DNA of 64,000 bases, taken from Bacteroidota bacterium (GTDB taxonomy: Bacteria > Bacteroidota > Bacteroidia > Flavobacteriales_D > Crocinitomicaceae). The notes under the pieces were generated by a model. That model made no database searches and was not told the DNA's origin. It was given only the letters and a program-made list of their open reading frames with translations. Where the stretch lies: positions 62,001 through 126,000 of the forward strand of contig JAJRQQ010000106.1 of the NCBI GenBank assembly GCA_024280155.1, read 5' to 3'. This document shows positions 1,884 through 60,100 of the stretch, one piece after another (the stretch's first letter is position 1; each line of letters starts with the position of its first letter). Position numbers and translations under genes: made by a program.

Positions 1884-3094
1884 ATGAAATTTATTTTCAC
1901 CTTTCTTTTTTTTATTATCACATTTTTTTCTTTTACACAGAACCTTAAAAAAGGTATTTGGCATGCTCAATTAAAATTAAATAATAAAGATGTATTGCCT
2001 TTTACTTTGAAAGTAGATAAAAACAACCAAATAACCATATTAAACGGCGAAGAAAATATAAAATTAGAAAAGATTCGTGTTGAAAATGATAGTTTACGTG
2101 TTCGTTTTCCTTTTTTTAATTCTGAAATTGTTTTTATAAGCACTAAAAAAAGAATGACTGGTTATTGGGTAAATTACCAAAGAAGTGAAAATTATAAAAT
2201 TCCATTTTATGCCGAAAAAGTTAAACGAAAAAGTCCTCGGTTTTTAACTACAAAACAAACCAAAAATTCACTTGACATTGACGGAAATGGGAGGTTAAAT
2301 TTGAACCAGAAACGAAAGATGAATATCCTGCGTTGGGATTATTTAAACAAAATAATTCAACCGTTAATGGTACTTTTTTAACAGAAACTGGAGATTATCG
2401 TTATTTAGAAGGTAACACTATAAATGATAGTTTGTATTTATCTTGTTTTGATGGTTCTCACGCTTTTTTATTCAAAGCAAAACTCAAAAATGATTCATTA
2501 ATAGGAACATTTAATAGTGGTTCTCATTGGGAAAGTAAATGGAATGGAGTATTAAATAATTCTTTTAAATTACAAAGTCCTGAAAAATTAACTTATTTAA
2601 TTAACGATACACCTATTTCATTCTCTTTTCCTAATTTAAAAAAAGATACTGTTTCATTCCCAAATGAAAATTATAAAAATAAGGTTGTTATTCTTCAAAT
2701 TATGGGAACATGGTGTCCAAATTGCCTTGATGAGACGATATTATTTAAAGAAATTTATGAAAAGTATCATTCGCAAGGATTAGAAATTATATCTATTTGC
2801 TATGAAACTGGTCAAACATTAGATGATTATATAGTAAACGCAAAACGATTAAAAGATAAATTAGAAATAGAATACCCTTTTTTAATTGGTGGTTCTGCAC
2901 AAAAAAAAGATGCTTCCCTTGACTTTCCTATGTTAAACAATATCATGTCTTTTCCAACTACAATTATTATCGGTAGAAATGGAGAAATTAAACAAATTCA
3001 TACAGGTTTTAACGGTCCAGGAACGGGTGAATATTATACTGCATATAAAAAGAGATTGAATATATTAATCCAATCTCTTTTAAATATTCATTAA
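1884..3094 (+). pseudogene. TlpA-like thioredoxin-fold lipoprotein/periplasmic reductase, frameshifted
   Basis: Two overlapping reading frames (1884-2381 and upstream-extended 2333-3094) make one protein of about 400 residues. The first frame has a signal peptide (MKFIFTFLFFIITFFSFTQ) and a beta-rich domain; the second has a TlpA/AhpC-TSA thioredoxin fold with the active-site motif WCPNC in GTWCPNCLDE. The natural junction reads DIDGKWEVKFEPETK, which requires one extra A in the A-run at 2285-2287. This is the common Bacteroidota family of exported TlpA-type thiol-disulfide oxidoreductases. As written, the thioredoxin half lacks its export signal. It converges on rpiB. May be a real pseudogene or a one-base sequence error. 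Confidence 0.85.
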
Positions 3095-3107
3095 GTTTTA
3101 TTCCTTT

Positions 3108-3542
3108 TTAACAACACGCAATTTTATCTACTCTTCTTTGATGACGACCACCTTCAAAATCGGTAGAGAAAAAAATATCCACAATTTTTAAAGCTTCTTC
3201 TTCTGAAAGAAAACGGGCAGGTAATGCTAAAATATTTGCGTTGTTGTGTTGACGAGCTAATTTTGCTATTTCAACATTCCAACAAAGTGCACTACGAATA
3301 GCTTGATGTTTATTCACAGTCATATTAATTCCGTTACCAGAACCACAAATAACTATTCCTAAACATTTTTTCTCTGATACTTTTTCAGCAACTGGGTGAC
3401 CATAATCAGGATAATCAATACTTTCTTCTGAATAACAACCAAAATCTTCTAATTCATAGCCTTTATTCGTTAATAAGTTAATAATTGATTTTTTCAACTC
3501 AAATCCAGCATGATCAGATCCGATAGGAATATATTTTTTCAT
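3108..3542 (-). CDS. rpiB: Ribose-5-phosphate isomerase B
   Basis: 144 residues, the full RpiB/LacAB length. Interconverts ribose 5-phosphate and ribulose 5-phosphate in the pentose phosphate pathway, in the cytoplasm. Visible family motifs are GSDHAGFELK at the N-terminus (substrate phosphate binding), SIDYPDYG, and CGSGNGINM containing the catalytic Cys, followed by the NILALPARFL segment. The C-terminus ends in two Cys. It has its own well-formed promoter in the gap to the right and converges with the thioredoxin gene. Confidence 0.95.
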   Translation of the reverse strand: MKKYIPIGSDHAGFELKKSIINLLTNKGYELEDFGCYSEESIDYPDYGHPVAEKVSEKKCLGIVICGSGNGINMTVNKHQAIRSALCWNVEIAKLARQHNNANILALPARFLSEEEALKIVDIFFSTDFEGGRHQRRVDKIACC

Positions 3543-3561
3543 AATTTTATTGGTTTAGTTA

Positions 3562-3592
3562 CAAAGCTATATCATATTAACAATTCATACAA
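3562..3592 (-). promoter_or_regulatory. Predicted rpiB promoter (Bacteroidota type)
   Basis: On the minus strand TTG (3590-3592) is followed by exactly 20 bases and then TAGCTTTG (3562-3569), matching the Bacteroidota consensus TTG-N19-21-TAnnTTTG. The start codon of rpiB lies 19 bases further on. Confidence 0.6.
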
Positions 3593-4157
3593 CTTTTAAA
3601 CAATTAAAGTATTCATTGTTTTTTAACCAACTGATAAGTAGTTAATTAATTTTAAAGTTTTACACATAAAAAAAAATAAAATTGTTAATCAGTGTTTATA
3701 AAAAGTAAAGACTTTTCCTTTGATATCATCAATTAATAGTTCATATCAAAAAAGAAAAAGAAAAACCTAGAAAAGAAACCTTTATTTATTTAAAGTTATC
3801 AATAAGTAATTGAATGAAAATAAGTAAATAAATAAATAATCTTATAAACAATGGTTCTTTTTATAGATTGTTGATAATTCAGCTAAGAGGTTAAATTTAA
3901 AGGAAGAGAAGTATTGAAAACAAATGATTTTATCTTAATAAGTTAATTAACAAGAAATATTGAGTATTTTTCTACACAAATTAACAATCTTAATAAAAGT
4001 AATAAATTTCTTTTTATAAAAAATCTTTATTATTTACTTTATAAAAAAGACAAATTAGTAATATTTTGAAAATTCAAAAATTAGATTATATTCTAACTGA
4101 ATTAAAATAAAATAATTACAATTAACTGTATAACAACCGATTATAATAATTAAATAG
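3593..4157. other. Long AT-rich intergenic region without a recognisable gene
   Basis: The stretch between the rpiB promoter and the sensor-kinase start contains no ORF I would defend on either strand. It is very AT-rich, with a run of nine A at about 3668-3676 and repeated AATAA/TTAATTAA words. One inverted repeat is clear: TTTGATAT at 3719-3726 and ATATCAAA at 3743-3750 with a 16-base spacer, a possible operator. I see no tRNA and no strong terminator. It presumably holds the promoter of the kinase gene. Confidence 0.5.
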
Positions 4158-7100
4158 ATGAATTCTATTAAAAAACTTCTAAAAAAAATTGACTCATGGA
4201 AAAATGAATTTATTCCTTATTATGAACGTGAAAATGGAATTATTCGAATTTCAATTATTCATTCAATAACTGCATTTATCATACTCCCTCTTTTTTCATT
4301 TTTAATAAAAGATTTTCATGAGTTAGAAATTTACGTTTACCTAGCTTTATCTTATACAGTATTATTTCCTTTATATTTCTTCATTTCTTGGAAAATTAAA
4401 TTTTTTAAATACAAACTGGTCTACTTTTTTATTCTTCATTTATTCTTTGTTACTGCGATTGCTTTTTATAGTTTAATTAATCATCAATTTAGTGTTATAG
4501 AACTGATGATGTTTTTTACATTGTTTAACCTTTCTTTACTAATTATTCAAAGATGGAATTCATTATTACTTTATATTTCATTTGTATTTCTTTTATTTTT
4601 ATACGCCTTTTACAATAATAAATACGCCTTACCTTTCCAGAAAGTTTTGTTATCAGAAATATTTATTATTAGTGTAAGTACTTTATTTGTATTGTATTTT
4701 AGAATTAAATTATTAAAAAAAGTAAAAGATTATTCAAAATATTTACTTGATGTAATTAAATCATCAGGATCTGGATATTTAATTTTTGATATAAAAAAAG
4801 AAAATAGAGTTATTGATTTTAATCAAAAAGTTGGACAATTATTTTTTCTTACAGAAATTACAAATACTAATGTAAAAGATGTTGTTTTTTCTTATCTTAA
4901 TGAAGAAGAGATTAATAAAATAAAAAATCTAATTGTAGGAGATAATTATAAGAAAAATATTAAAATTCAAAATAAAGGAAAATCAATTTTTATTGAAATA
5001 AAATTTTCTGTTCTTGTATTAAAAAATAATCAATTTTGGTTGGCTTTAATTAATGATATTACATATGATGTTATTAAAAGAAAAGAAATAGAATTATCTG
5101 AGCGTAGGTATCAAAATTTATACGAAAAAAATAAAGCAGGTGTATTTACTTTAGATATTGATTCTAAAATATTAAAAGGAAATACTTCTTTTTTTAAAAT
5201 GTTGGATGGTTTTTGTAAGCAGGGAGATTATTTATTTACAAAAAAACAAAATAAAGAATGGGAAATAATTTTAGAATCGTTAGGAGAACATAGTTATTCT
5301 CAAAATTACCAAACACAATTTTCATTATCAAATGGAGTAGAAAAAATATTTATTTTTAATTGGTATATTGATATTGAAAGAAATCAAATTGAAGGTTCTG
5401 TTATTGATTTAACAAATATTCAAAAAACAACTTTAGCATTAAAACAAAGTGAAGAAAAATATCGACTGATTTTTGAAGAAACCAATGATGCTATTTTATT
5501 TTTAGATTCCGATAAAATTATTGATTGTAATCGAAGATCTCTTCAACTTTTTGGTGTTCCTCAAGAAGAATTATTAAATAAAAATTTATTTGATTTAAGT
5601 TTTAATACAAATAATCAATCGAAAAAGAAGTACAACTCATTAAAAGATGAAAACAATAATTATCGAAGTATAAAGTTTGATTGGACATTTAAATCTAATA
5701 ATCGTAAAATTGAAGCTAACGTTAATGTAATTGAAGTAATTTTAGATAAAAAAATATTTTATCAATGTGTTATTCATGATATAACAAAATTGAATAAACA
5801 CATTCGATCCATTGAAAATAATCAACAAAATTTAGAAAATATTTTTTTAAATCATCCGGAAGGAATTATTATTTGTCATGAATCAACCATTCTTTTTACT
5901 AATCCAGAAATTCATAAAATATTTGGTGATTTTATTGATTTAAAAAATATTTTTAAAGGAGAAAATAAAAAGAAATTTAATTATACCTACGAAGAACATT
6001 TAATAGATAGAGAAAGAAAAAATATTCAAATTAATTTCTTTAATTTATCGCGGTTAAAAGTGAAAATGGACATCACTTTTGTATCAACAGTTTATGAAAA
6101 TAAAGATGCAGTTTTAATTATTTTTAAAGATATTTCACTTCAATCTAAAATTGAAAAAGAAATTCTTCGTGCAGAATTAGCAGAGGAAATGAATTTTAAA
6201 TTAGAAAATGAAATTAATGATAGAATTTTAGCTGAAAAACAATTGGAAGAACAGTTTTTAAGAATGAAAGCAATTTTAGATAGTTCTTCCAATACTTTTT
6301 TATTAACATTAACATTAGATGCTAATATTTCTTCTTTTAATACACATTGTAAAGCTTATTTTTCCACTATTCTCCGAAATAAAATTGTAAAAGGAGATTC
6401 GTTTTATGATTATTTTAAAAAAGTTCTTAACCCTTTTCAATTGCGCTTTTTTAGAATAGTTTTCCTCGATATTAAAAAGGGAAGATCAAAACAATTTGAA
6501 ATAGAAATAGATGTAAACGGTATTAACCATTGGTTGGAAGTTTTTGTGAACCCAATTTTTAATACGGAAGGAAAAGTTTCTGAAATTTCTCTTGTTGCTC
6601 ATGATATTAGTGAGAAAAAGAAATCCAATATAGAAATAGAATCTTCTTTGAAAGAAAAAGATGTTTTACTGAAAGAAATTCATCATCGTGTAAAAAATAA
6701 TCTTCAAGTTATTTCAAGTATTTTAAACCTTCAAAGCTCTTTTATTACAGATGAAAAAATACTTTCAATTCTTCAAGAAAGTAGAAATCGAGTAAGAACA
6801 ATGGCTATAATTCATGAAAACCTTTATCGTACGGAAGATTTTGCAAGTATAAATTTTGCTGAATATCTAGATAATTTAATGGGAAATCTTATTTCTTCTT
6901 ATCGGGTAAATCAAAATATTCTTCTTATTAAAGATTTTGAACAAGTTGATTTAATTCTTGATCAAGCTATTCCAACAGGGTTAATTGTAAATGAAATAAT
7001 TTCTAATTCTTTAAAATATGCGTGGGGCGAAAATACAAAAGGAAAAATAAGTATTTCTTTAAAAGAGAAAAATGAAGTCATTCATCTTGAAATAAGTGAT

Positions 7101-7259
7101 AATGGTAAAGGACTACCTGGTAAATTTGAAGATTTACAAACGGAAACGCTTGGTTTACAACTGGTAGCAACTCTAATTGAACAATTAGATGGAGAGATTA
7201 AAACAGAAAATACAAATGGAACCAAATATTTCATTAAATTTGATAAAATCAAACCTTAA
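4158..7259 (+). CDS. Multi-PAS membrane sensor histidine kinase (HisKA_2 type)
   Basis: 1033 residues. N-terminal membrane block with about six helices (residues 28-185), then a chain of about five PAS-like sensor modules (roughly 190-310, 315-425, 430-545, 555-670, 700-825), then the kinase core. The dimerisation helix reads KEIHHRVKNNLQVISS with the phospho-acceptor His at 842/843, the HisKA_2 signature. The ATPase has an N box NEIISNSLKYA and a G1 box DNGKG, and ends in a FIKF strand. Three bases separate it from a LytTR response regulator, its evident partner. The five-PAS chain is long for this class and suggests integration of several cytoplasmic signals. Ligands unknown. Confidence 0.92.
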   Translation: MNSIKKLLKKIDSWKNEFIPYYERENGIIRISIIHSITAFIILPLFSFLIKDFHELEIYVYLALSYTVLFPLYFFISWKIKFFKYKLVYFFILHLFFVTAIAFYSLINHQFSVIELMMFFTLFNLSLLIIQRWNSLLLYISFVFLLFLYAFYNNKYALPFQKVLLSEIFIISVSTLFVLYFRIKLLKKVKDYSKYLLDVIKSSGSGYLIFDIKKENRVIDFNQKVGQLFFLTEITNTNVKDVVFSYLNEEEINKIKNLIVGDNYKKNIKIQNKGKSIFIEIKFSVLVLKNNQFWLALINDITYDVIKRKEIELSERRYQNLYEKNKAGVFTLDIDSKILKGNTSFFKMLDGFCKQGDYLFTKKQNKEWEIILESLGEHSYSQNYQTQFSLSNGVEKIFIFNWYIDIERNQIEGSVIDLTNIQKTTLALKQSEEKYRLIFEETNDAILFLDSDKIIDCNRRSLQLFGVPQEELLNKNLFDLSFNTNNQSKKKYNSLKDENNNYRSIKFDWTFKSNNRKIEANVNVIEVILDKKIFYQCVIHDITKLNKHIRSIENNQQNLENIFLNHPEGIIICHESTILFTNPEIHKIFGDFIDLKNIFKGENKKKFNYTYEEHLIDRERKNIQINFFNLSRLKVKMDITFVSTVYENKDAVLIIFKDISLQSKIEKEILRAELAEEMNFKLENEINDRILAEKQLEEQFLRMKAILDSSSNTFLLTLTLDANISSFNTHCKAYFSTILRNKIVKGDSFYDYFKKVLNPFQLRFFRIVFLDIKKGRSKQFEIEIDVNGINHWLEVFVNPIFNTEGKVSEISLVAHDISEKKKSNIEIESSLKEKDVLLKEIHHRVKNNLQVISSILNLQSSFITDEKILSILQESRNRVRTMAIIHENLYRTEDFASINFAEYLDNLMGNLISSYRVNQNILLIKDFEQVDLILDQAIPTGLIVNEIISNSLKYAWGENTKGKISISLKEKNEVIHLEISDNGKGLPGKFEDLQTETLGLQLVATLIEQLDGEIKTENTNGTKYFIKFDKIKP

Positions 7260-7262
7260 GTT

Positions 7263-8018: not shown

Positions 8019-8021
8019 AAG

Positions 8022-10164
8022 TTAATCCAACACCATTTCTAAATTTATTTGTCGTTTAGGAACAGAAACATCTTGAATTCTGACTTTCACTTTATCACCA
8101 AAGTTATATTCTTTCTTTTTACGATTACCAACCACTGCAAACTTATCAGCATCAAATCGATAACGATCTCCAGGAATATCTTGCATTGGAATTAATCCTT
8201 CACATTGATTATCGTCCATTTTTACAAAAATTCCAAACTCTGCAACACCAGAAATGGTTCCATTAAATTCTTTTCCCACTTTATCTACAACAAATAAGGT
8301 TTGAAAATATTTAGTACTTTCCCTTTCTGCTTCCACCGCTTTTCGTTCCATGCGTGAAATTCGTTTACAAACGTCATTCAATTCAGAACCGTAACGGTGC
8401 TTTTGATGCGTTAATTCTTCTTGTAAAATACGGTGAACAACCAAATCAGCATATCGACGAATTGGTGAAGTAAAATGTGTGTAATGTGTAAAACCTAATC
8501 CATAATGACCAATATTATCTGTTTCATAAGTTGCTTTTGCCATCGAACGAATTGCCATGGATTGAATCAAAGAAAATTCATTTTTATAGCGAACATCTGC
8601 TAATAAAGCATTGATGTTTTTTGAAATTTGATGTGGATCAGTTACGTCGATATCGTACCCAAACTTTCGAATAAAAAGGTTGAATAATTCAATTTTTTCA
8701 GGATTTGGGTGGTCATGACAACGGTAGACAAATGGAATTTTATTCGTTCCTTTTTTTTGTTTTGAAACAAAAGTTGCCACCAATCGATTCGCTAAAAGCA
8801 TGTATTCTTCAATCAATTTATGGGCATCTTTTGATGTTTTAATCACCACCTCAACAGGAGTGCCTTCTTCATCTAATCGAAAACGAACCTCTTCACTTTC
8901 AATATTCATTGCACCGTTATCTAAACGTTTTTTTCGCAAAATCTTAGCGATTTTATCTAAAATATGGATTTCTTCGTAGTAATCTGAACCATCATTTTCT
9001 TTCGTTTCAATAATTTCTTGTGCTTCTTCATAAGTAAATCTTCGGTTAGAATGAATCACTGTTTTACCAAACCACTCATTGTAAATTTTACCTTTCTCAT
9101 CCATTTCAAAAACAGCGGAAAATGTAAATTTATCTTCATCAGGTCGTAAAGAACAGACAAGGTTAGACAATTGCTCGGGCAACATTGGAATAACTCGATC
9201 AACCAAATAAACAGAATTAGAACGTTTTAATGCTTCAACATCCATTGGTGAATCGGGTTGAACATAATGGCTGACATCAGCAATATGGATTCCAACTTCA
9301 ATGTGTCCATTTTCTAAAGATTTAAAAGAAATTGCATCGTCAAAATCTTTTGCATCAAGTGGGTCAATTGTAAATGTATCCACTTCTCTAAAATCTCTTC
9401 TTTTCTGTATTTCTTTCGGGTCAAGTTTTAAATGAATTTTTTCAGCCTCAGAAAGAACATCATAAGGAAATTTATAATCCAAACCTTGATTAATTCAAAT
9501 GCTTAACATTTCAATATCATTTCCACCAGAGTTTCCTAAAACTTCAATTATTTTACTAAGGACTTTGTGCAGATTTAGGCCATACAGTGATTTCAGCAAT
9601 CGCCTTATCTCCTTCTTTTGCCCCTTTTAATTTTTCTTTTTGAATAAAAATATCCGTTCCAACCCTTGGGTTATCAGGAATTAAAAAAGCATAATTATCA
9701 TGCATTTGTATGGTTCCAACAAATTGTGAACGTTCCCTTTCGATTACCTCAAGAACAACACCTTCCGGTCTTTTTTTTCCTTGTTTAGTAATTTGTATCT
9801 TAACTAAATCTCCTCCAATTGCTTGATTTATTGAATGCGGAGGAATAAATATATCCTCAACCTCTGGGTCATTTACAACCACAAATCCAGCTTTTCTGGC
9901 GGTCATTTGAATAATTCTTTCTAAAAAAGACTCGTTATGATTCAATTGATAAATGTTATATCCTGCTTTTTTAAGAATTTCTTTTTTAGATAAATCTTCT
10001 AAAATAGAATACACCAATTTACGAATAGCAGACTCTTTTACGTTTATCATCGCGCAAACTTGTTTGTGATTTAAAGTGCTATCAGGATTTTCTTTAAATA
10101 CTTTACGAATTATATGTGCTAAACTGTGTGTTAGCTTTTTGTTTGATTTTTTTCTTTTTGACAT
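8022..10164 (-). pseudogene. rnr: Ribonuclease R, interrupted by frameshift and in-frame stop
   Basis: The N-terminal part (start ATG at 10164, MSKRKKSNKK) carries a helix-turn-helix-like region and cold-shock/OB domains. The C-terminal part (8022-9482) carries the RNB catalytic domain, with the Asp cluster DPLDAKDFDD, and a C-terminal S1 domain (FNGTISGVAEFGIFVKM). Between them the expected linker is readable as IEVLGNSGGNDIEMLS, but the frame is lost at 9555-9559 (CCTTAGT where CCTTTAGGT would be normal) and a TGA sits in frame at 9495-9497. Together about 710 codons, normal for RNase R, a 3'-5' exoribonuclease in RNA quality control. As written it yields no full enzyme; two lesions in a 65-base stretch could be poor consensus. 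Confidence 0.9.
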
Positions 10165-10169
10165 TATTG

Positions 10170-10177
10170 CGAAGATA
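10170..10177 (-). promoter_or_regulatory. -7 box of rnr, five bases before its start
   Basis: Minus-strand TATCTTCG is followed by five bases and the rnr ATG at 10164. It is a variant of TAnnTTTG; the same variant precedes the DUF6427 gene at 22136. The spacing implies a leaderless or nearly leaderless transcript. Confidence 0.4.
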
Positions 10178-10188
10178 CGAAGAAATAA

Positions 10189-10219
10189 TTGATGAAATTC
10201 ATTGATAATGATAACTTTG
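10189..10219 (+). promoter_or_regulatory. Predicted ferritin promoter
   Basis: TTG at 10189-10191, 20-base spacer, TAACTTTG at 10212-10219, then 15 bases to the ferritin ATG at 10235. Lies back to back with the rnr -7 box in a 70-base divergent region. Confidence 0.6.
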
Positions 10220-10234
10220 TATAAAACAATTATT

Positions 10235-10750
10235 ATGAATACAAGAGTTGAAAAAGCATTGAACAATCAAATAGAAAAAGAAGCATTTTCTTCACAATTT
10301 TACTTAGCAATGGCTTCTTGGGCTGAAAATCAAGGATTAAACGGTACATCTAAGTTTTTATATGAGCATTCTGATGAGGAAAGATTTCACATGTTGAAGT
10401 TGGTGAAATTTGTCAATGAACGTGGTGGAAAAGCAATAATTCCTGCTATAGGATTACCTCAAAACAATTTCGATGGAATAGCAGATGTGTTTCAGAAATT
10501 GTTAGATCATGAATTAATCGTAACAGATAGTATTAATGAATTGGTAGATATTTGTTTGCAAGAAAAAGATTATACAACACATAATTTCATTCAATGGTAT
10601 GTTTCGGAACAACTGGAAGAAGAAGCACTTGCGCGTACAATTATGGATAAAATAAAATTGATTGGGAATGATAAAGGTGGACTTTATTTATTCGATAGAG
10701 ATTTAGAAAATTCAAGTATTCAAGTAAGTAATCCAAATGCAACGGTATAA
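10235..10750 (+). CDS. ftnA: Bacterial non-heme ferritin
   Basis: 171 residues from ATG 10235; an upstream in-frame ATG at 10202 overlaps the promoter and is rejected. Four-helix-bundle iron-storage protein that oxidises Fe(II) and stores it in a 24-mer shell. Ferroxidase ligands are visible as E16 (EKEAFSSQFY), E49 and H52 (DEERFHML) and the later WYVSEQLEEE helix. The closing segment GGLYLFDRDL is typical of the FtnA family. Transcribed divergently from rnr. Confidence 0.93.
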   Translation: MNTRVEKALNNQIEKEAFSSQFYLAMASWAENQGLNGTSKFLYEHSDEERFHMLKLVKFVNERGGKAIIPAIGLPQNNFDGIADVFQKLLDHELIVTDSINELVDICLQEKDYTTHNFIQWYVSEQLEEEALARTIMDKIKLIGNDKGGLYLFDRDLENSSIQVSNPNATV

Positions 10751-10762
10751 AGTATGAATTAA

Positions 10763-13700
10763 ATGAAATTTCTTCTCCTACTTCTATCTTTATCTTTATT
10801 CCTCACAGTTAATAGTCAAACAAGGTTTAATTTTAAAAATTACACCATCAGTGATGGTTTATCACAAAGTTCAATTACAACCATTCTTCAAGATGATTTG
10901 AATGGATTATGGGTGGGAACACAAGATGGATTAAATCGATTTGATGGTAAATCTTTTGAAAATTTAACCTCAGATAATACAGAGGGCATTTATAGTGATT
11001 ATATTCTTTGCTCAATAAAAGACAATGAGGGAAATTTATATTTTGGAACAAATAAGGGGTTGTTGGTTTACGATTTCACAAATGATGTTTTTCGCTCTTA
11101 TTTTATTTCTGAAAGTCATTCTTTTACAAAAATAAATAGTATTTCAAAAGATACTAAAGGAGATATTTGGGTTTCTGTCAGTGATATAGGGGTTTATAAA
11201 TTTAACAGAAAAGAAGCTAAATTTTATTCTTATTCTTCAAAAATACCGTTTTTTAAAATTAAAGAAATTGAAATTTCCCAGGAAGATGAATTGATTGCTA
11301 TTACAGAAAATGATGAGATAATCTTATTTGATATAACTTCAGATAAATTGATAAAAACAAATCATTTAGGAAAAATCACGCTCAATTCTATTTCCTTTTT
11401 TAACGGTAAAACGTACATATCAAGTAATAATGGTGTTTTCGGTTTACATTTACCCAGTTTAGCAATTCAGCCCCTATTTAAATCTTTGTTTAAAAAATAC
11501 GGGAATCAAAATATTTCAGATGTTTATTATGAAAACAATTTTGGTTGGATTTTTTGTACCAAAAAGAATGGTATTTTCTTTCTTATGAACGATGATGGTT
11601 TACACCATTGTACAGAAGATCTTTTTCAAAAAAATGCGTTACTTTTTAATGAAATTAATTCAATTTCAAAAGATAATTCAGGAACTTTTTGGTTGGCAAC
11701 TCAAAGAGGACTTTCAAGTTTTAATCCTCTGCAACAAGGGTTTTTAGGTGTTGGTGCAAGTGGTGAAAAAGAAAAAGGCATCCCTTCTCCAGGAGTTTGG
11801 AGTTTTAGCGAAACAAAGGATGCAAAGCACCTTTTTATAGGTACAGATTATGCTGTTACAAAACTAAATAATAAAACGGGTGTTTTTAAATCTTATTTTT
11901 TTCCAAAGGAGCAACAGATGAATCAACAGTGTTGTCTCTTGAGGCAATCACAGAAAAAGAAATTATGGTAGGTTGTGCGAATGGTTTTTTTAAATTAAAC
12001 ATTTTTAATAATAATTATACCTTTTCTTCCCTTCAAAATATTCACCCCTTAAAACACAAAAGAATTTATAAAATAATTCATTGGAAAGACAACCTATACT
12101 GGGCAGCCACAAAGGAAGGTGTCTTTTTATATAACAATAGTGATAAAAGTATTCAGTTTTTTGAACATGATTTGAAGAATAAAAAAGAAACAATTTCTCC
12201 AGGAATTTGTCGATTGGTTTATAAAGATCAATACGATCAAATATGGTTTACAACAAGTTCTGGTGGATTAAATAAATTAATTGAAAAAGAGGGGGAGTTA
12301 AAAATAATTCCATTCCATCAAAATGAAAAAATTAAGCACATATCTTCGGCATATATTACTTCTATTTATAGAGAAAGTAAAGATGTATTTTGGTTTGGAA
12401 CGTCAGGTTATGGCTTGTTAAAATGGAATAAATCTACCCAAAAATCAGAAACATTTAATAAGAAAAATGGTTTACCAAATAATGTTATTTATGGTGTCTT
12501 ACCGGGAAAAATACATTCACTTTGGTTGAGTACAAATAAAGGAATTTCCAACCTTAATACACAAACTAAAACGACTAAAAACTACACAGAATTAGACGGG
12601 TTGATGAGTAATGAGTTTAACCTTGGTGCTTATATGAAGTCCCCAAATGAATATATATATTTCGGTGGAATCTATGGGTATAATTATTTTGATCCAAATA
12701 ATCTAAAAACGACAAATAAAAACATTAATGTTTCTTTTATTAAATTAAAATTAGACAAAGAATGGGTAAAACCAGGAAAAGAAAATTCACCCTTGAAAGC
12801 ACCAATTTTCTTAACCAAAGAACTTTTATTGAATTACAATCAAAGAAGTTTTAGTGTAAAATTTCAAGCCTCAGACATTAGTAATCCTAATATTCTAAAT
12901 TACAAATACCTTCTTGAAGGATCGAATGATGAAGAGATTTTAATAGGTAATGAAAATGAAATTCATTTTAGTTCACTTTCTCACGGTGAGTATGTTTTAA
13001 AAGTATATGCTCGATTAGGAGAAGGGGAGTGGAGTAAATATCCAGCAAAATTAAAAATTATTATAAAACCTCCTTTTTGGTCAACTTGGTGGTTTAGAAT
13101 TGTAAGCGGTCTATTTTTTGCCGGAATGGTTTATTTGTATTTCAAAAAAAGAGTAGATGATGCTCGAAAAGACCAATTGCGTTTAGAAATGAAAATCAAT
13201 GAACGTACACGTGAGATAAAAAAACAAAACAAAAAAATTGAGCAACAAAAGAAAAAATTAGAACTCGAAAGAAATACGGTTATTAAACAGCAAAAAGAAC
13301 TTCAAAAAGAAAAAGATAAAACAGAACGACTTCTAAAAAACATTATTCCAGAATCTTTTGGAAAAGAACTTAAAAATAGAGGAAAGGTTAGCGCAAGATC
13401 TTATGATAAAGTATCTATTCTTTTTACTGATTTTGTTGGTTTTTCAAAGATATCAACTCAAATGAAGCCAGAAGAGTTGGTAAAAAAATTAGATGTTTAT
13501 GTTACCAAATTTGATGAAATAATCATTAAAAACAATCTCGAAAAAATTAAAACTATAGGTGACGCATATATGGCGGCAGGTGGTGTTCCTGTGCGAAATA
13601 AAACAAACCCAATAGATACTTGTCTTGCAGCAATTCAAATTCAAGCCTATATGCAAAAACGTAAAAATGATGCGATTGCAAACAATAGCGATTATTGGGA

Positions 13701-14622
13701 GTTGCGTTTAGGTATTAATACAGGAAACGTTACTGCGGGTGTAATTGGTCGTGAACGTCTTGCTTTTGATATTTGGGGGTCGGCAGTAAATACGGCCCAA
13801 AGAATGGAAATGTTGGGTCAACCAGGAAAGGTTACTATTTCTGAGCAAACCTATTATGAAATTGAACCTTATTTTGAGTGTGTTGTTTTAGGAAAAGAAA
13901 AAACGAAAGACAACGAAGATATTAACATGTTTTACGTTAAAGGTATCAAACAAGAGTTATCAATCGGTGGTGAAGGAATAGAACCAAACGAAAAATTTCA
14001 AAAAATTGTAAACCTTCATATATATAGTTCAATTAATTATTATAAAGCTGAGCGAGCAATTATTAATAAATTAACAGCCGAACTTTCTGAAAACCTGCAT
14101 TATCATAGTGTAGCTCACACAAGAGATGTTGTAAAAGCTGTAGAGCGACTTGCAATTGCTGAAGGAGTTACAGATGAAGGTTTATTTTTATTAAAATCTG
14201 CTGCTTCTTATCATGATGCAGGTTTTGTTGAACAGTATGAGAAAAATGAAAAAATTGGTGCGAGTATGGCACAAGAGATATTACCAAAATTTGGTTATAC
14301 ACAAGAACATATTGACCGAATAAAAGAACTTATTTATGTTACAGAAATTCCGCATCACCCCAAAAACCAATTGGAGGAGATTATTTGTGATGCCGATTTA
14401 GATTATTTAGGAAGAGATGATTTTCATAAAATTGCCGGTAAATTATGCAAAGAATTAATAGAACACGGGAAAATTGATCACCCAAAACAATGGGATGAAA
14501 TTCAAGTATATTTCTTAAAGCAACACCGTTATTTTACAAAAACAGCCATTGATTCACGCAGAAAAAAGAAGGTTAAAAATATGAAAGAAGTAATTGATCG
14601 ACTGGAAAAAAATGAGTATTAG
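10763..14622 (+). pseudogene. Propeller sensor - adenylyl cyclase - HD domain fusion, frameshifted
   Basis: Frame 1 (10763-11971) has a signal peptide (MKFLLLLLSLSLFLTVNSQ) and Reg_prop-type propeller blades (ISDGLSQSSITTILQD, GLWVGTQDGLNRFDG). Frame 2, to 14622, continues the propeller, then a Y_Y_Y domain, one transmembrane helix (near 13080-13140), a Lys/Glu coiled coil, a class III cyclase domain and a C-terminal HD domain. Cyclase residues are intact: both metal Asps (LFTDFVGF, IGDAYMA), the adenine-selecting Lys and Asp (KIKTIGD, FDIWGSAVN) and the transition-state Asn/Arg (NTAQRME). HD residues H, HD and D are in HSVAHT, YHDAGF and CDADLDYLG. The frames join if the T-run at 11896-11902 had eight T. 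About 1287 residues when joined. Confidence 0.88.
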
Positions 14623-21625: not shown

Positions 21626-22000
21626 TTAATCTTGAGCGTTTTTTGCTTCTATACTTAACGTCGCATGAGGCACTAACATTAAACGTTTCTTTTGAATTAA
21701 TTTCCCTGTCACGCGGCAAATACCGTAATTTTTATTTTTTATACGGATTAAAGCATTTTAAAGACTTGTAATAAATTTTTCTTGACGGTTTGCTAGGTTT
21801 GCCATTTCTTCTCTTGACAATGTTTCAGAACCATCTTCCATCATATTGAAAGAACGCCCCGTATCATCAGTCCCATGATCATCGTTGTGTGACAATGAAC
21901 CACGAAGTAAATCTAAATCTATTTTAGCTTCCACTAATTTTTTATCAATAAGATCCTTACACTCCTGTAAATCCTTATCATTATATCTTGTCGTTGCCAT
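21626..22000 (-). pseudogene. DksA/TraR-family transcription factor with internal stop codon
   Basis: The reading frame encodes 124 residues in the typical Bacteroidota TraR/DksA form: a coiled-coil N-terminus (MATTRYNDKDLQECKDL), a segment GRSFNMMEDGSETLSREEMA, then after a TAA at 21758-21760 the C-terminal part NALIRIKNKNYGICRVTGKLI and VPHATLSIEAKNAQD. The family usually has Glu or Lys at the stop position. These proteins bind the secondary channel of RNA polymerase and assist (p)ppGpp control. As written only an 80-residue N-terminal fragment is made. Whether the stop is real or a base-call error cannot be settled here. Confidence 0.85.
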
Positions 22001-35854: not shown

Positions 35855-36027
35855 ATGGAAAAAGGACATTTAAAAGCAATTTTGCCTTACCGTTATTAAC
35901 TGAAATCAGCAAGAATGGGGAAAATATGGAAATCCCTACTGGAACCGAAGTTCTTCGTGAGGGACAATACGTAAAAGTAATTTCTATTGTTATTTTCGGT
36001 TTAATCTTTTTACATCAGGATATTTGA
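35855..36027 (+). pseudogene. Crp/Fnr-family regulator, N-terminal remnant
   Basis: ATG 35855 opens MEKGHLKAILP, which stops early. One T more in the TT at 35887-35888 would continue as LPLLTEISKNG, then EIPTGTEVLREGQYVKVI and IVIFGLI. This is the start of the cyclic-nucleotide-binding domain of Bacteroidota Crp/Fnr regulators (IP.GTEILREGQYVKVIPIVI.GLIKV). After GLI the similarity ends and a stop follows at 36025-36027; the rest of the sensor domain and the DNA-binding domain are missing. The bestrophin 3' end lies at this point, so the remnant was probably cut by a deletion or insertion. Confidence 0.7.
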
Positions 36028-37044
36028 CTTAGATTTAATTGGTTCGGGTAAGTCTGTTTCGGAGAGCATTTCCTTTAAATCAATTTCTATCGTTCTACAA
36101 ATTGAAAGCATTGGAATATCAGAGCCTAAACCTTGAAAAGGGAATTCTGCAAAATCGCCAATAATTTCCATAATAATATAAATCCAACCTACAAGAGATG
36201 TAATTGGTATCGCTAACCAAACCCCCATGTGTCCAGATTTAACAATTTCAGGAATCATACTAAAAGGAAGTAATATTAAAAATATTCCCACAAAATAACG
36301 GCTCATATTCGCCATTTGTCTTGGAATAGGAAACTTCTTTATTCTTTCACATTTACCTTGTTGCGTATAAAAATCTTTTAAAATTGTAGTTAATTCTACG
36401 TGGCTAAAATCATTAATTAAACCTTTTTTTCTAAGTTGTGCAATATCTTTCGACTGCTCAAAAATTAACTGAGTTGCAGGGTTTTTAGCTTTAATTATAA
36501 GGTCTAATTCATTTTTAGGAATAAACTTATCAATATCTGATTCCGTAACTTCATTTTCAACCAGACCTAGACCATATTTTCTCTGATGATTTTTTACAAA
36601 ACGTGCAACTAACCCTTTTTGATTTGCGTGCTCCCAGGAGGTTGGTTCTAACAGCTGTTTTCTCAACATATATAACCAAGCAATATGTCTGTATGTTAGC
36701 CTCTTTTTAATAGCGGAAAGTTCTTCCTCTGACATCTGATCTGAGTTTGGTTGGTTGGTTATAAACCCGTCTACATCCATTCCCCAAGTTCTACTCGAGT
36801 TCACAATTGCACCCCACACTTTTCGTGCTTCCCATATTCTATCGTATGCCTGGTTGTTCTTAAAACCCAAATAAAAAGCTACGGCGGTACCTATTATTGA
36901 TAATGGTAACCATGGTAATACAACTTCAACGATATCATATTCGTACAATAATGAAACGATTGTTGTACCGATTAAAAGTAAAAGTATATGAATCCCTGAC
37001 CAAGAAATTACTTTTTTAAAAGGAATTGTTTTTGAAGTTACCAT
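36010..37044 (-). CDS. Bestrophin-family anion channel
   Basis: 344 residues. Four membrane helices (about 12-34, 36-58, 240-260, 268-292) around a long cytoplasmic domain, as in bestrophin/UPF0187 proteins such as KpBest. Motifs: IPFKKVISWSGIHILL, YLGFKNNQAYDRIWEARKVWGAIVNSSRTWG and PLVGWIY-like ITSLVGWIYIIMEIIGDFAEFPFQG. Seven bases downstream of carbonic anhydrase, on one operon. In algae and some bacteria bestrophins carry bicarbonate, so with the anhydrase a role in bicarbonate transfer is likely. Confidence 0.9.
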   Translation of the reverse strand: MVTSKTIPFKKVISWSGIHILLLLIGTTIVSLLYEYDIVEVVLPWLPLSIIGTAVAFYLGFKNNQAYDRIWEARKVWGAIVNSSRTWGMDVDGFITNQPNSDQMSEEELSAIKKRLTYRHIAWLYMLRKQLLEPTSWEHANQKGLVARFVKNHQRKYGLGLVENEVTESDIDKFIPKNELDLIIKAKNPATQLIFEQSKDIAQLRKKGLINDFSHVELTTILKDFYTQQGKCERIKKFPIPRQMANMSRYFVGIFLILLPFSMIPEIVKSGHMGVWLAIPITSLVGWIYIIMEIIGDFAEFPFQGLGSDIPMLSICRTIEIDLKEMLSETDLPEPIKSKSNILM

Positions 37045-49862: not shown

Positions 49863-50794
49863 TCAATTCTTTTTTACAACAATTGCATCTGTAAACCCTC
49901 GTTTTTTTATTTGATTCAAGGCATTTTTAGCTTCTTCTTGTGTAGAAAAATTACCCACTAAATAGATGTATTTGTAAGCATTTTTCGTGTTCAATTCTTT
50001 TCGATGTACATTCATTTTCAATCGTTTAAACGATTTGTCTTCTTCGTTAATAGGTAGGATAGATGACATTATTTGAATGCAATAATACTGTGATGATGTT
50101 TTTTTCTCTGTGTTTTGGACTTTTTTTCTCTGCACAAAATTAATTTTTGGAAATTCTTTAATAATTGTTGTTCGAAAAGCTCGAAAAATTGCAGAAGCAA
50201 TGATTTCTTGACCATAAGTCGTGTTTAAATAATTGGCTTCCTTAGTGTTTGTTAAGAATCCACATTCGACTAAAACACTTGTCATATTGGTGTATTTTAA
50301 AACCTGTAAGGTGTGCTTTAAATCTTTCATGTCTTTAACACCTCTTGATTTTCGGCCGGCACGTTTGGAAAACTGTTTTTCAATTTCACGAGCTAGTTGA
50401 ACAGATTTTGTTAAACGCATAGTATGAACATGTGTTTCTGTTCCCTTTACTCGTTTATTATCGTTTCCATTGCAGTGAATACTGATGAAATAATCTGCTT
50501 TATTCTTATTTGCCATTGCAACTCTATCATCTAGACTCGGATAAATATCATTTGTTCGAGTGTACATGACCCTAACATTTTGTAAGTATTTCTCCAAGTA
50601 GCCTCCTAATTCTTTCGCAATAAGTAAATTTAATTCTTTTTCAGAATGCAATTGAGTGTTGTGAGCGAGGTGACCAGGATCACTTCCACCATGTCCAGGG
50701 TCAATAACTACTAAGACTTCTTTTTTTGTGCAAATAATGAATTCTGAACAAAAAACATTAGGAAGAAGAGTAAAAGAAGTCGTATTATTTTCAT
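49863..50794 (-). pseudogene. N-acetylmuramoyl-L-alanine amidase with SPOR domain, frameshifted
   Basis: Start ATG 50794 gives a signal peptide (MKIIRLLLLFFLMFFVQNSLFAQ) that stops after three Lys. One more A in the run of seven (T at 50721-50727 on the plus strand) would continue as KKEVLVVIDPGHGGSDPGHLA into the Amidase_3 domain. Zinc ligands are His in DPGHGG, His in SIHCNG and a Glu, and the catalytic Glu is in VLVECGFL. The C-terminal region (about 240-310 when joined) is a SPOR domain (QYYCIQIMSS, YIYLVGNFSTQEEAKNAL) that binds denuded septal glycan. Cleaves the peptide stem during division; likely a target of FtsEX. Confidence 0.9.
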
Positions 50795-50880
50795 TTTATA
50801 AATATAAGAAAGATTGTTTTTTGTTTCTTTACATAAATAAAAGATTACAAAGTACGAATTGTTGACAGCTATAATAAAGA

Positions 50881-51936
50881 ATGGAAAAAATCGCATTAGT
50901 AGAAATTGGAGGATCACATGATGAGTGCTTATTAACCCAAATGGATGCCATTAAACAATCGGGTAGAAAAGTTATTCTTATAACAACTCAGGTTGTAATG
51001 GATAGAAACCCATTTTTTAGCGATTACATCGATTCTCTTCTTCTTCTTTCAGAAGCAGAATTAAAAAACAAAATGAAGTCGATGCGAAAACTTCTCCACT
51101 TTTTAAAAAAAGAAGGTGTATCTAAACTTGTTTTAAATACTGCGCAAGGCAATCATATCCGAAATTTATCCATTCTTGCTCTTTTTTCTAAAATAGAATT
51201 TATTGGGATTATTCACACAACGCGAAAATTTAACGACAGTTTTACGCAGAAAATCATACATAAAAAGATTAAAAAGTATTTATTGTTGAGTGCTTTTTTG
51301 AAAGATAAAATTACACCACAAAAAGGCATTTCTTTAGATTACTTTTATCCTATTCACTTTAATAAAGCAAGTATAAATCACGAGAAATTCCCCAAAAAAA
51401 CGATAGTCGTTATTGGGGGGGTAGAAAATCGTCGGAAAGATTTAGAAGGTTTTCCACAACTCATTAAAAACGTTGGAAATGATTTCCAATTTGTTTTTTT
51501 AGGAAAAAGTGACCCAAATCAAGCTGAAGTAATTGTATTTAAAAAAAGGTTGATAGAAAATCAGTTATCAGACAAGGTCATTTTCTATGATCATTTTGTT
51601 TCAAACGAAGAATTTTCGCAACAAATTCAATTATCTACAGCTATTCTTCCTTTGGTTCATCCCAACACACCAAGTGCTGATCAATATTTTAAAAATCAAA
51701 TCTCAGGGGCAATGAATGTCGCTTTTGGTTACCATAAATCGTTGCTAATTCATGAAGAATATTCACTGATCGAAGAGATGCAACCGGCAAGTGTTTACTA
51801 TAATTTAGAAAATTTTTCATCAATTCTTGAAATGAATAAAGATACTTTTATAGAAATTTCAGCACAAATGAAAAATAATTCTTCATTTGATGTTTTAGAA
51901 CAAGAAAAAAGGTATTTATCTTTTATACTTGGTTAA
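50881..51936 (+). CDS. Glycosyltransferase-like protein (GT-B fold)
   Basis: 351 residues, no signal peptide. Two Rossmann-like halves: EKIALVEIGGSHDECLL at the start and KTIVVIGGVENRRKDLEGFPQLIKNV with NDFQFVFLGKSDPNQ in the second half, then ILPLVHPNTPSADQYFKNQISGAMNVAFGYHKSLLIHEEY, which resembles the donor site of GT4-like enzymes. No strict EX7E motif was checked. Donor and acceptor unknown. Its 3' end overlaps where the intact uvrC would end. Confidence 0.7.
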   Translation: MEKIALVEIGGSHDECLLTQMDAIKQSGRKVILITTQVVMDRNPFFSDYIDSLLLLSEAELKNKMKSMRKLLHFLKKEGVSKLVLNTAQGNHIRNLSILALFSKIEFIGIIHTTRKFNDSFTQKIIHKKIKKYLLLSAFLKDKITPQKGISLDYFYPIHFNKASINHEKFPKKTIVVIGGVENRRKDLEGFPQLIKNVGNDFQFVFLGKSDPNQAEVIVFKKRLIENQLSDKVIFYDHFVSNEEFSQQIQLSTAILPLVHPNTPSADQYFKNQISGAMNVAFGYHKSLLIHEEYSLIEEMQPASVYYNLENFSSILEMNKDTFIEISAQMKNNSSFDVLEQEKRYLSFILG

Positions 51937-52005
51937 AGTGGTTAAAAACAACTTTTGCTTTTGCTTCACCAACAACAGTTTTTAATTCATCAACGGTTGC
52001 GGTCT

Positions 52006-53721
52006 TTATTTTTTTACCGTTTTAAAAGCCTTCATTAATTCTTCATGTGTTTTAGGTCCTACTCCTTTGATTGCTGTTATTTCGGACGTCAAAGATGCTT
52101 TACTACGTTTGTCTCGATGATGTGTAATTCCAAAGCGATGTGCTTCATTTCTTAAATATTGAATAATGCGTAAACTTTCCGATTTTTTATCAATGTAGAT
52201 AGGATATTGGTCACCTGGAAAGAAAATTTCTTCCAAACGTTTTGCAATTCCTACAATGGCGATTTTTCCACGGAGATTTAGTCGCTCTAATGCTTTTAGT
52301 GATGCGCTTAATTGCCCTTTTCCACCGTCAATGACAATGAGTTGGGGTAAAGATTGGTTTTCTTTTAATAAACGTTTATACCTTCGATATACTACCTCCT
52401 CCATGGATGCAAAATCGTCAGGACCATCGACTGTTTTAATATTGAAATGGCGGTAATCTTTTTTACTTGGTTTTGCATTTTTAAAAACGACACAGGCAGA
52501 AACAGCATTTGTTCCTTGGAGGTTAGAGTTATCAAAACACTCAATGTGTACAGGTTTTTCTTGTAATCGAAAATCAACGCGAATTTGCTCTAGAATTCTT
52601 TCGGTGTGTCGCTCTGGGTTTTTAATTTTCTCTTGTTTTAACTTATCCATTCGAAAGAACTTAGTATTCCGTTGAGATAGATCAATAAGAGACTTTTTGT
52701 CGCCACGCTGAGGAACAAAGAATGTTATTCCATCCAATTCTAATCCGATAGAATGAGCAATTAAACCCTCTTTGTTCTGACTACTGAATCTTTCTCGCAT
52801 GTCTGGTAAAACAAAACCAATAATGTCGGCATCAGTTTCTTCGAGTTTCTTTTTAACTTCAACGGTAAAACCATGAATAATTGAGCCGTTTTGAATGACG
52901 AGATAATTTACAAAAGCTGTTTTCTCGTCTTGGAGAACGGTAATAACGTCCAATTGAGAAATCGTAGGAGAAACAACCGTAGATTTTGCTTTGTAACGTT
53001 GGATGGTGGATATTTTTTCTTTGACTTCTTGTGCTTCTTCGAATTTTAACTCTTCTGCAAGTGTCATCATTTTATCTTTCAAAGAACGAATAACTTCACC
53101 AATATTTCCTTTAACGATATGTTCAATTTCCTTGATATAAACATTGTATTCGTCTTCTTTTTCATACCCAACACAGCCGCCCTTGCAATTTCCAAGGTGA
53201 TACTCTAGGCATACTTTATGTTTTTTTTCAGCAATTTTATTTTTAGATAAATCGAGGTTGCAATTTCTGAGCGGATATACTTCTCGAATAAAAGAGAGGA
53301 GAGTAGTTACAACTTTTACACTTGGGTAAGGACCGAAATACTTAGAACCGTCCTTTACAATTCTTCGTGTAGAAAAAACACGAGGAAAGGCTTCTTTTTT
53401 TATACAAATCCACGGATATGTTTTATCGTCTTTGAGTTGTATGTTGTATTTTGGTTGGTACTTTTTTATCAGACTGTTTTCCAACAACAGTGCATCCATT
53501 TCTGTTTCAACAACAATGTATTTTATTTCATCAATTTGGGCAACAAGTACACGGGTTTTACCATACTCTTGCTTTTTATTAAAGTAGGAAGCAACTCTCT
53601 TTTTGAGGTTTTTTGCCTTTCCGACGTATAAAATCTTCTCTTCTCTATTGTAAAACTGATAAACTCCAGGTTTTTCAGGGAGAACTTTTAACTTAAGTAG
53701 AATAGAAGCTTTTACATTCAT
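52006..53721 (-). CDS. uvrC: UvrABC excinuclease subunit C, C-terminus shifted
   Basis: 571 residues. GIY-YIG nuclease domain at 13-92 (PGVYQFYNREEKILYVGKAKNLKKRV), Cys-rich CNLDLSKNKIAEKKHKVCLEYHLGNCKGGCVGY, UVR motif near 205-240 and the RNase H-like domain (HIECFDNSNLQGTNAVSACVVF, LIVIDGGKGQLSAS). The protein ends after the first half of the helix-hairpin-helix (AIKGVGPKTHEELMKAFKTVKK). One more A in the run at 52009-52015 would extend the frame through IKTATVDELKTVVGEAK to a stop at 51923, completing the second HhH. Makes both incisions in nucleotide excision repair; the missing tail is needed for the 5' cut in E. coli. Confidence 0.92.
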   Translation of the reverse strand: MNVKASILLKLKVLPEKPGVYQFYNREEKILYVGKAKNLKKRVASYFNKKQEYGKTRVLVAQIDEIKYIVVETEMDALLLENSLIKKYQPKYNIQLKDDKTYPWICIKKEAFPRVFSTRRIVKDGSKYFGPYPSVKVVTTLLSFIREVYPLRNCNLDLSKNKIAEKKHKVCLEYHLGNCKGGCVGYEKEDEYNVYIKEIEHIVKGNIGEVIRSLKDKMMTLAEELKFEEAQEVKEKISTIQRYKAKSTVVSPTISQLDVITVLQDEKTAFVNYLVIQNGSIIHGFTVEVKKKLEETDADIIGFVLPDMRERFSSQNKEGLIAHSIGLELDGITFFVPQRGDKKSLIDLSQRNTKFFRMDKLKQEKIKNPERHTERILEQIRVDFRLQEKPVHIECFDNSNLQGTNAVSACVVFKNAKPSKKDYRHFNIKTVDGPDDFASMEEVVYRRYKRLLKENQSLPQLIVIDGGKGQLSASLKALERLNLRGKIAIVGIAKRLEEIFFPGDQYPIYIDKKSESLRIIQYLRNEAHRFGITHHRDKRSKASLTSEITAIKGVGPKTHEELMKAFKTVKK

Positions 53722-54684: not shown

Positions 54685-54840
54685 ATTAAAACATTTTAAA
54701 CAAAGATGCAGAGAAGAATGAAGTCAAAAACAAAGATGCACAGTTATTTATACACATCGAAGGGTTGAAATTGTTTTGGGCAAGATGATCTTAAAAACAC
54801 ATCCTTCTATTTTCATACAGTTGTTCTATAGTACTTCTTT

Positions 54841-57041: not shown

Positions 57042-57195
57042 AAACAGAAAATCGATGCAATTAAATAGGCATTTAGGCAAAAATAAGATAATTTTGACGA
57101 GTTTTAATTACTTTACTAACGAAAGCGAATCAAACTTTAGTATGATTTGGCATAAAATTAGAAGAAAGCAACGAAATTATCATAAAACATTACCT

Positions 57196-60100
57196 ATGAA
57201 AAGAATCATTACACTACTTTTTACTGTATTTTTTTACAGACATCTTTTGCTCAAAAATTGGATTATGACCACGATTCTAAATGGTTTTTAGGGATTAATT
57301 CAGGAGCCGCATGGAACACAACAGATGTTAAAAACAAAACCAATATTGCTTGGGGATTGACCTTAGGTCGTGCTTTTAACTATAATTATGGAAAGAAAGT
57401 TAGTTTTGATTTACGTTTTAGATATTTAGGTGGAAAATGGAGAGGACAAGATTACGACACAACATCTTTAAACGGTTATAATGCATCCATAACACCTCAA
57501 GGAAACGTCAGAACATTATACGATACTTTAGGTTATACCATTAATAATTTTCAAACTCAAATTCATGAATTTGGTTTAGAGTTAGTTATTCACGCCAATA
57601 GTTTACGAGAAAATTCAGGTTGGGATCCTTATATTTTTGGAGGAGTAAATTTTGTTTGGAATCAAACAAAAGGAGATTTATTGTACGAAGATTCAACATT
57701 ATCGTATTCTGATATTTACTATTATTCTCCTGATGGAATGACGAAAAAAGAATGGCGTAAAATGCGTGATAAAGATTATGACCTCGCCCTTGACGGTAGT
57801 TCTCTCAGTCGTTACAATGTTGATTTTATGCCAAGTTTAGGATTTGGGTTGGGTTATCAAGTCGGACCTCGGTTTCAGATTGGGTTAGAGCATAAAACAA
57901 CTTTCACAATGAATGATTTGTTTGATGGATACATTGATCCAACAGAGAGATGGGGCATGTTTACAAATGACATTTACCATTACACAAACTTGTATCTAAA
58001 ATTCCATATTCGTCATTATACAGAAGAAGAAAGGTTGGAGCAACAAGCACAGAATACGCAAACAACTCAAACAAACCCAACAAATACAAGTAATCCGAAC
58101 CCTGGAGGAGGTTGTTTAACACCAAGAATAAACATCAATAAACCACGAGGGGGTTCAATTACTGTTTATGAAAATCAATACACTATTCAAGCAATTATTG
58201 AAGAAGTTGCGGGCAGAAACAACCTTGTTTTTGATGTAAACGGACAGCTTTCTACGAATTTTATATACAACCCAAATAATGAAAGGTTTGAAGCGAAAGT
58301 TTTTCTTCAACCTGGAAATAATACAATTAGAATTGAAGCGGGAAATGGATGTGGAAAAGATGAACGTGTCATTACAATCAATTATGTTCAATGTACTGCG
58401 CCAATTGTTCAGTTTGTTAACCCTCAAGGAAATGGAATTACGGTAACCAACGCAAATTACACCGTAAATGCAAATGTAGTGAATGCAACAACTGTTGAAT
58501 ATTACGTGAACGGGAATCGAGTAAATTCATTCTCTCACAACTCATCAATAGGAAATTTTAGCAGTAACACTGTTTTAAAAAGAGGGATTAATACTTTACG
58601 AATTGTTGCTTCGAATAATTGTGGACAGGTGGAGCAAACGACAAGTATTGAATACACATCGTGTGTGAGTCCTTTTGTGGCAATTGCTACAGGAAGTCAA
58701 TCACAAATTGTAGATAATGCACAGTTTACTTTTCAAGCAACAATTACTGGTGTAACAACACAAAGTAATATTAATTTTAGGTTAAACGGAATGAATAAAA
58801 CATTCTCTTTTAACCCAACAACTCATCAGTTTTCTTCTACAATTACATTGAGAAGAGGAACAAACACACTTGAATTATTTGGTAGCAACACGTGCGGGAC
58901 AGATAGAAAAACGGTTACAATAGAATATGTTCCTTGTTCTTTACCTACGGTAATGTTTATTTCTCCAATAAATGGTAATTCTCCAAATGCACAAACATTG
59001 GTTAAAGTTAAGTTGACAGATATTTCTAATAGAAACCAAGTACAATTAAGAGTGAATGGGGTGTTAACTCAAACAGGAACTTTTGATGCTGCAACGCAAA
59101 TTTTCCAAGCCAGAATTTCTTTAGCCAGTGGAGAAAACAATATTTTGGTTACTGCAACAAATGATTGTGGAACGGTTTCTCAATCTGTGAATACGATATA
59201 CTCTCCTTGTGTTCCACCAGCAGTAACGATTATTCTACCGAATCAAACGATGTCTACACAGAATTCTGCAATTTTAAAAGTGAGCATTCTCAATGTTGCA
59301 AATAGAAATCAATTGACGGTAACGATTAATGGAGCGGTTTATACCGGTGGTACATTTAATGCCTCTACAAAAATTTATCAAACGAATTTTATACTTCAAC
59401 CGGGAGGAAACTCAATTCAAATAAAAGCAGTGAACAATTGTGGAAATGATCTAAAAACGGTAAACATTCAATACAAACCCTGTTATTCTCCAGAGGTAAA
59501 CATTCTTTCGCCGTTAGAAAATTCAACTACAGAATCTACGGTGTTATTGAGTGTAGCTTTACAGAATGTATCTTCTACAAATCAAATTCAAGCAACGAAT
59601 AATGGTCAAATTATAACAGGAGGGACTTATTCCTCCACAACAAAAAGATTTGAAGCTGTCGTAAATTTAATCGAAGGAATGAACAATATTGTAGTGGTTG
59701 CAACCAATTCTTGTGGTGCAATTAATCAATCTGTTCAAATTAAGAAGGTTACCGATATGAGAAAAGTATTGATTTGTCATAATTCTGGGAAGAAAGGAGA
59801 AAAAGATGTTGAAATGTATATTCCACTCTCAGAATGGGCAACGCACCAAGCACATGGCGATATTTTAGGTGGATGTCCACAAGTTGAAGACCCGATAGAC
59901 GACCAAATTACAATTTGTCACAAAAGTCCAAAAACAAATACACAATCTACTATAGTTATCAGTGCTTCAGATTGGGCAGTTCACGAAGCACATGGAGATA
60001 CAAAAGGTACTTGCCGAGAAATTAGTGACCCAAACACAGAATTAACCTATGTTATTTGTCACACTGACCCACAAACAGGCGAAAAGTCGACCATTAAAAT

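Follow-up and report, generated by a model that had tools for sequence, protein, structure and literature searches.

Interrupted genes in the window

The window analyzed here, 64,000 nucleotides long, covers positions 62001-126000 of contig C114 (137,282 bases) in the draft genome of a bacterium of the family Crocinitomicaceae (2.86 Mb, 114 contigs, 88.8% complete). An initial annotation, made from the sequence alone, had listed eight genes of this window as broken. The same genus has 33 relatives assigned to it. When proteins of relatives were aligned onto the window in a frame-aware manner, breaks were apparent in seven of the eight, namely, the genes for a TlpA-like protein, ribonuclease R (rnr), a sensor protein with a nucleotide cyclase, a DksA-like protein, an amidase, UvrC and an outer-membrane protein (Table 1). 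The remaining one, a Crp/Fnr-like sequence, is a truncated remnant.

Table 1. Interrupted or truncated genes of the window (coordinates count from the first base of the window)
Gene	Position	Strand	Lesion
TlpA/AhpC-like thioredoxin-fold protein gene	1884..3094	+	frame broken near 2285
rnr (ribonuclease R)	8022..10266	-	two lesions: shift at ~9557 and in-frame TGA at 9495-9497
Sensor and nucleotide-cyclase gene	10763..14622	+	frame broken at T7 run 11896-11902
dksA-like gene	21629..22000	-	in-frame TAA at 21758-21760
Crp/Fnr-like truncated remnant	35856..36030	+	~48 codons, out of frame with apparent start (three-frame translation, tblastn)
N-acetylmuramoyl-L-alanine amidase gene	49863..50917	-	frame broken at T7 run 50721-50727
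uvrC	51984..53721	-	frame broken at T7 run 52009-52015
Large surface or outer-membrane protein gene	57200..60479	+	frame broken near start at T7 run 57229-57235

The breaks in uvrC and in the cyclase gene are the firmest, with all 36 references placing the uvrC shift at 52015 and all 28 placing the cyclase shift at 11893-11926, beside the run of seven T. UvrC is shortened by no more than ~30 C-terminal residues (571 versus about 602 amino acids, aa); the cyclase frame spans 910 aa, compared to uninterrupted frames of 1276-1418 aa in 24 of the 33 relatives, although five listed relatives also have shorter frames. In rnr, a reference protein of which contains a detectable RNB domain, the shift lies at 9557-9560 in 23 of 23 references, and the in-frame TGA at 9497, 60 bases away, is seen in 22 of the 23. 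Six of seven references place the TlpA-like shift at 2285 and the seventh at 2225; the corresponding reference protein matches AhpC-TSA/Redoxin. The amidase shift falls at 50726-50732 in four of five references, the fifth aligning only from its residue 15. Amidase models match a reference protein, and, judging from the layout of the open reading frames (ORFs), the break lies in a low-identity stretch between the signal peptide and the catalytic domain. For the outer-membrane protein, three references locate the shift at 57216-57246, one of them counted as fully spanning it. The dksA nonsense codon proposed in the initial annotation is confirmed by both available references (the DksA models match the reference protein, but below their cut-offs).

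The further proposal that most of these genes had lost one base in a short A/T run holds for the cyclase, amidase, uvrC and outer-membrane protein genes, each at a run of exactly seven, but not for the stop in dksA, for the TlpA-like gene, which is shifted at no long run, or for rnr, where the TGA adds a second lesion to what had been taken for a simple two-base run error. The TlpA-like and rnr shifts sit at runs of only three to five bases. The Crp/Fnr-like remnant, whose family name was assigned by eye and from the initial annotation, consists of ~48 codons followed by a stop and then by a bestrophin-like gene on the opposite strand; it has one significant match (42%, locus L074) among the relatives' loci compared. 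This is probably a real, older gene fragment and, as such, an exception among the breaks.

Breaks across the genome and among relatives

The breaks are not local to the window because a census of 858,800 bases of the genome, window included, in which coding parts were compared with relatives, finds them across the sample. Automatic calling marked 29 sites over 214,562 bases of aligned coding sequence; manual review retained 18 of them, comprising 8 shifts and 10 in-frame stops on several contigs, or about one break per 12 kb. The same procedure applied to a relative, G015, gave 15 automatic sites over 209,370 bases, and no more than 5 of these were kept. The 11 sites dropped from the present genome were antisense (L050, four rows; L223 13859 and 15364; window 9031-9082), in tRNA or upstream sequence (L223 16420; window 7257 and 54690) or weak (L080 243). 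In G015, 10 were dropped (L141, three rows; L225, seven rows), and the possible breaks are L039 19722, L139 5748, L140 6475 and 6644, and L147 2391, the last retained since its antisense status could not be shown. Two candidates of low identity, L080:6410 and L246:18703, do not enter the count; the TlpA-like and outer-membrane protein breaks fall below the identity threshold of the census and so are not among the 18. A raw census over 21 genomes gave 1.2 breaks per 10 kb here, 0.8 in G015 and 5.7 in G001, but these rates were not used because antisense, tRNA and upstream ORFs swamp them.

Outside the window, the broken genes are nrdA, glmM, asd, rplA and those for ornithine aminotransferase, an ABC-F ATPase, a COX3-like protein, a DUF4175 protein and a protein of the type IX secretion system (T9SS). 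For nrdA, a second ribonucleotide reductase is whole. By contrast, glmM, which carries both a shift and a TGA, has no second close copy, and 25 of the 33 relatives possess an uninterrupted, full-length one; in asd, 98 bases separate a stop from a shift (4 of 4 references); the only second copy is a 31-residue fragment elsewhere in the genome. The rplA gene, encoding ribosomal protein L1, contains a TGA in 17 of 17 references. In addition, on contig C12, the frame of a two-domain GTPase carries a TGA and adjoins an era-like frame (as read from the ORF layout alone), a position that suggests that this gene is probably der. A bacterium with a cell wall cannot do without the products of glmM, asd and der; Escherichia coli survives the loss of rplA, and uvrC, rnr, dksA, the amidase, the COX3-like protein and the T9SS proteins are dispensable elsewhere. 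Thus, the breaks strike irrespective of gene importance, in glmM, asd, rplA and probably der as well, and, with single-copy glmM and asd broken, are not confined to dispensable genes.

The 3' end of asd also occurs on contig C50 as a 108-base repeat, 96% identical (L088 1164-1271 and 2250-2357), the two units flanking a 304-aa ORF on the reverse strand; this arrangement could stem from misassembly or from an insertion event in which the end of the gene was duplicated.

The initial annotation had called for a comparison with the closest relative at the breaks. When a relative was counted as broken if it had a break within 30 bases of the site, the breaks in uvrC and the cyclase gene were found in none of 29 relatives each, that in rnr in none of 24, that in the TlpA-like gene in none of 7, and those in the outer-membrane protein gene and dksA in none of 3 and none of 2, respectively; the rplA break is likewise common to no relative examined. 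The amidase site is the exception, being broken in one of five relatives (L033 of G020). The A/T runs are not conserved either: the longest run is seven bases in 1 of 29 relatives at the uvrC site, with shorter ones in the others, and in 2 of 29 at the cyclase site, and none of these relatives is broken there.

Origin of the breaks

The kept shifts are concentrated at A/T runs. Four of the eight were assigned to runs of seven, whereas 2.0% of the aligned positions lie within 9 bases of such a run (binomial probability 1e-5); the census places the cyclase shift 12 or more bases past its run, and its exclusion leaves three of eight (4e-4). The aligned stretches contain 30 eight-base A/T runs. 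The breaks are also clustered, with 2 pairs within 150 bases (0.2 expected, P 0.018) and 7 within 2 kb (2.1 expected, P 0.007). Among the eight stops with a clear source residue (two of the ten were left out as unclear), five are changes to G, an excess with P of 0.010 if all changes are equally frequent and 0.0002 if a bacterial mutation spectrum is assumed. A mismatch-repair defect does not seem to be supported, as far as we looked: MutS, the only component covered, is encoded in one frame of 908 aa without stops.

The origin of the assembly can be read from its contig ends. Among 39 ends compared, with one contig masked, three pairs share exactly 141 bases, and 141 is the largest default k of MEGAHIT, so the genome is most likely a short-read (de Bruijn) assembly. 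The shortening of homopolymers in long reads of the nanopore type, a possible source for shifts of one sign at seven-base A/T runs, is accordingly hard to reconcile with these overlaps and also with the stops, which make up half of the breaks. In addition, A/T runs of ten (18 overlapping matches here) lie within the range of the 33 relatives (3-124), and the 23S rRNA gene, tried as an error gauge, was not found here, a result shared by 28 of the 34 genomes searched. We consider long-read error highly improbable. Genome-wide truncation of homopolymers was rejected as well, since the few A/T runs of 10 or more hinted at in the sample, relative to G015, gave way to an ordinary count over the whole genome.

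On balance, it seems fairly likely that most of the breaks reflect faults of the assembled sequence, in a draft genome built from short reads, and not properties of the living cell, because the same damage reaches genes that the cell should need. Conceivably, where coverage was thin, a contig would follow one or a few faulty reads, which would introduce single-base errors at A/T runs some eight bases long, together with scattered substitutions, some of them creating stops. In this respect, a review states that MEGAHIT discards k-mers seen once, yet rescues some as 'mercy k-mers' (PMC8021871). Consensus error, one of the options offered in the initial annotation, is thus the best supported, although not in its homopolymer-only form, given that 10 of the 18 breaks are stops.

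Artifacts of this general kind are not without precedent. In the GeneTack survey, singleton frameshifted genes are expected to be sequencing errors and not genuine indels (PMC3711429). The present breaks resemble these singletons in being found in one genome only and in that both parts match one family, but differ in that stops are as frequent as shifts and that the record is a draft bin. Similarly, a read-level T-to-G artifact of two-color Illumina chemistry is described in another study (PMC13218037); two of the stops here require a T-to-G change, whereas the other three changes to G fit C-to-G (one could be T-to-G).

Furthermore, the genome is apparently not the only one affected. In G007, also a draft genome from this genus, rpoB is interrupted by an in-frame TAA (L239 11611; 18 of 18 references), and tuf is shifted close to its end (L239 16394; 14 of 14). 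Since no cell should survive with a stop within rpoB, breaks of this type are present in at least one further draft genome of the genus.

The initial annotation had also raised the possibility that transcriptional slippage restores the frame, and four breaks of the window do lie at A/T runs of seven. Polymerase slippage reportedly rescues poly(A) tracts in insect endosymbionts, a case ascribed to Tamas et al. in 2008; the present breaks are similar in lying at A/T runs of an AT-rich genome but differ in that the genome is not reduced, the runs are only seven bases long and not conserved, and stops are present. In Escherichia coli and Buchnera, transcription insertions predominate in A/T runs, and the portion of that study available reports no frame restored by transcription error (PMC5574713); slip sites are often eight or longer, according to the GeneTack survey noted above (PMC3711429). 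Slippage or programmed frameshifting at the seven-base runs nevertheless appears very unlikely because it would mend neither the stops (10 of 18) nor the shifts outside runs, and because the runs at the uvrC and cyclase sites are not conserved. Even harder to credit is a living lineage that copes with a break in roughly every 12 kb of its coding sequence, cell-wall and ribosome genes included, through slippage combined with readthrough of stop codons.

Several observations weigh against assembly error. In the census, six of the 18 sites are supported by a single reference (two of these, in glmM, are backed by a separate comparison). The contigs reach 146 kb, which suggests fair depth, and the 10 stops imply ~0.09% substitutions (10/214,562 divided by the 5.2% nonsense share), far more than a fair-depth short-read assembly should hold. 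The clustering of the breaks also fits decaying genes. The frames taken for valS, ileS, leuS, fusA, tuf, lepA, typA, infB, rpoB and mutS are whole (a match to a tRNA-synthetase family on contig C78 is a frame of 176 aa only). Finally, changes at otherwise invariant columns that are found in this genome only, which we used as the measure of decay, number 4/144 in rnr and 10/264 in the cyclase gene, each exceeding all but two relatives, and 35/659 in nrdA and 6/170 in asd, exceeding every reference (only 6 and 4 references, respectively); the excess of A:T to C:G changes in the rpoB block is not significant (Fisher test, P 0.09).

These high counts in rnr, the cyclase gene, nrdA and asd are compatible with what we regard as the main rival, namely, a real and very recent inactivation of genes throughout the genome, of the sort expected on a new association with a host or under weak selection, with little further decay so far. 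Young pseudogenes show about equal numbers of shifts and stops, one to two per gene, as is the case here. Moreover, the GC content is the lowest among 11 genomes sampled, several of the broken genes are dispensable elsewhere, the Crp/Fnr-like sequence demonstrates that a real remnant is present, and slippage-prone mutation in living cells, also suggested in the initial annotation, could form part of such gene loss. However, recent inactivation would have to include single-copy glmM and asd, rplA and probably der; the spectrum of the stops does not fit a bacterium under AT pressure; and, at 2.86 Mb, the genome is not a small one for a genus that ranges from 2.1 to 5.1 Mb. Neither is extra change general among the broken genes, with uvrC (2/230) and rplA (0/147) being ordinary and otherwise conserved, or specific to them, the whole rpoB block having 66/3,467 own-only changes, the highest of 19 genomes, mostly conservative. 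Since this unbroken block is also high, the elevated rates may reflect a long branch and not that the broken genes are decaying. The own-only changes near the breaks were too few to assess for local clustering, and protein identities are slightly lower than those of the neighbors but were computed over different gene sets. Altogether, recent inactivation strikes us as the less likely explanation, and the breaks are, for the most part, probably not a real biological feature.

Implications and further observations

Claims of gene loss or pseudogenes from this bin would be unsafe without read support, and the same caution extends at least to a second draft genome in the genus, G007, with its rpoB stop. 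Should the breaks be real, they would indicate that selection had collapsed very recently. A literature search on pseudogenes in freshwater Crocinitomicaceae turned up no papers; the named records matched by the RNase R of this genome are, going by their titles, mostly bins of freshwater-type Flavobacteriales and Crocinitomicaceae (26 loci).

In rpoB alone, this genome has 6 own-only changes in 1,089 columns; most relatives have 0-3, and three outliers reach 18, 28 and 66. The two highest outliers are contaminant-like contigs: the copies L216 and L218 (bins G031 and G014) are ~74-78% identical to the other copies compared and, by this measure, probably are contaminants.

Within the window, positions 4001-8000 have a GC content of 23.8%, versus ~33% window-wide, over a 1033-aa ORF that by eye resembles a PAS/histidine kinase. 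Locus L261 (contig C85) appears to be N nearly throughout. Contig C7 begins with a tandem repeat (L051 1-1268) whose unit recurs about every 210 bases, and seven contigs carry dispersed repeats of one family (at L085, L087, L096, L250, L255, L256 and L258), which range in length from tens to about 500 bases and in identity from 85 to 100%.

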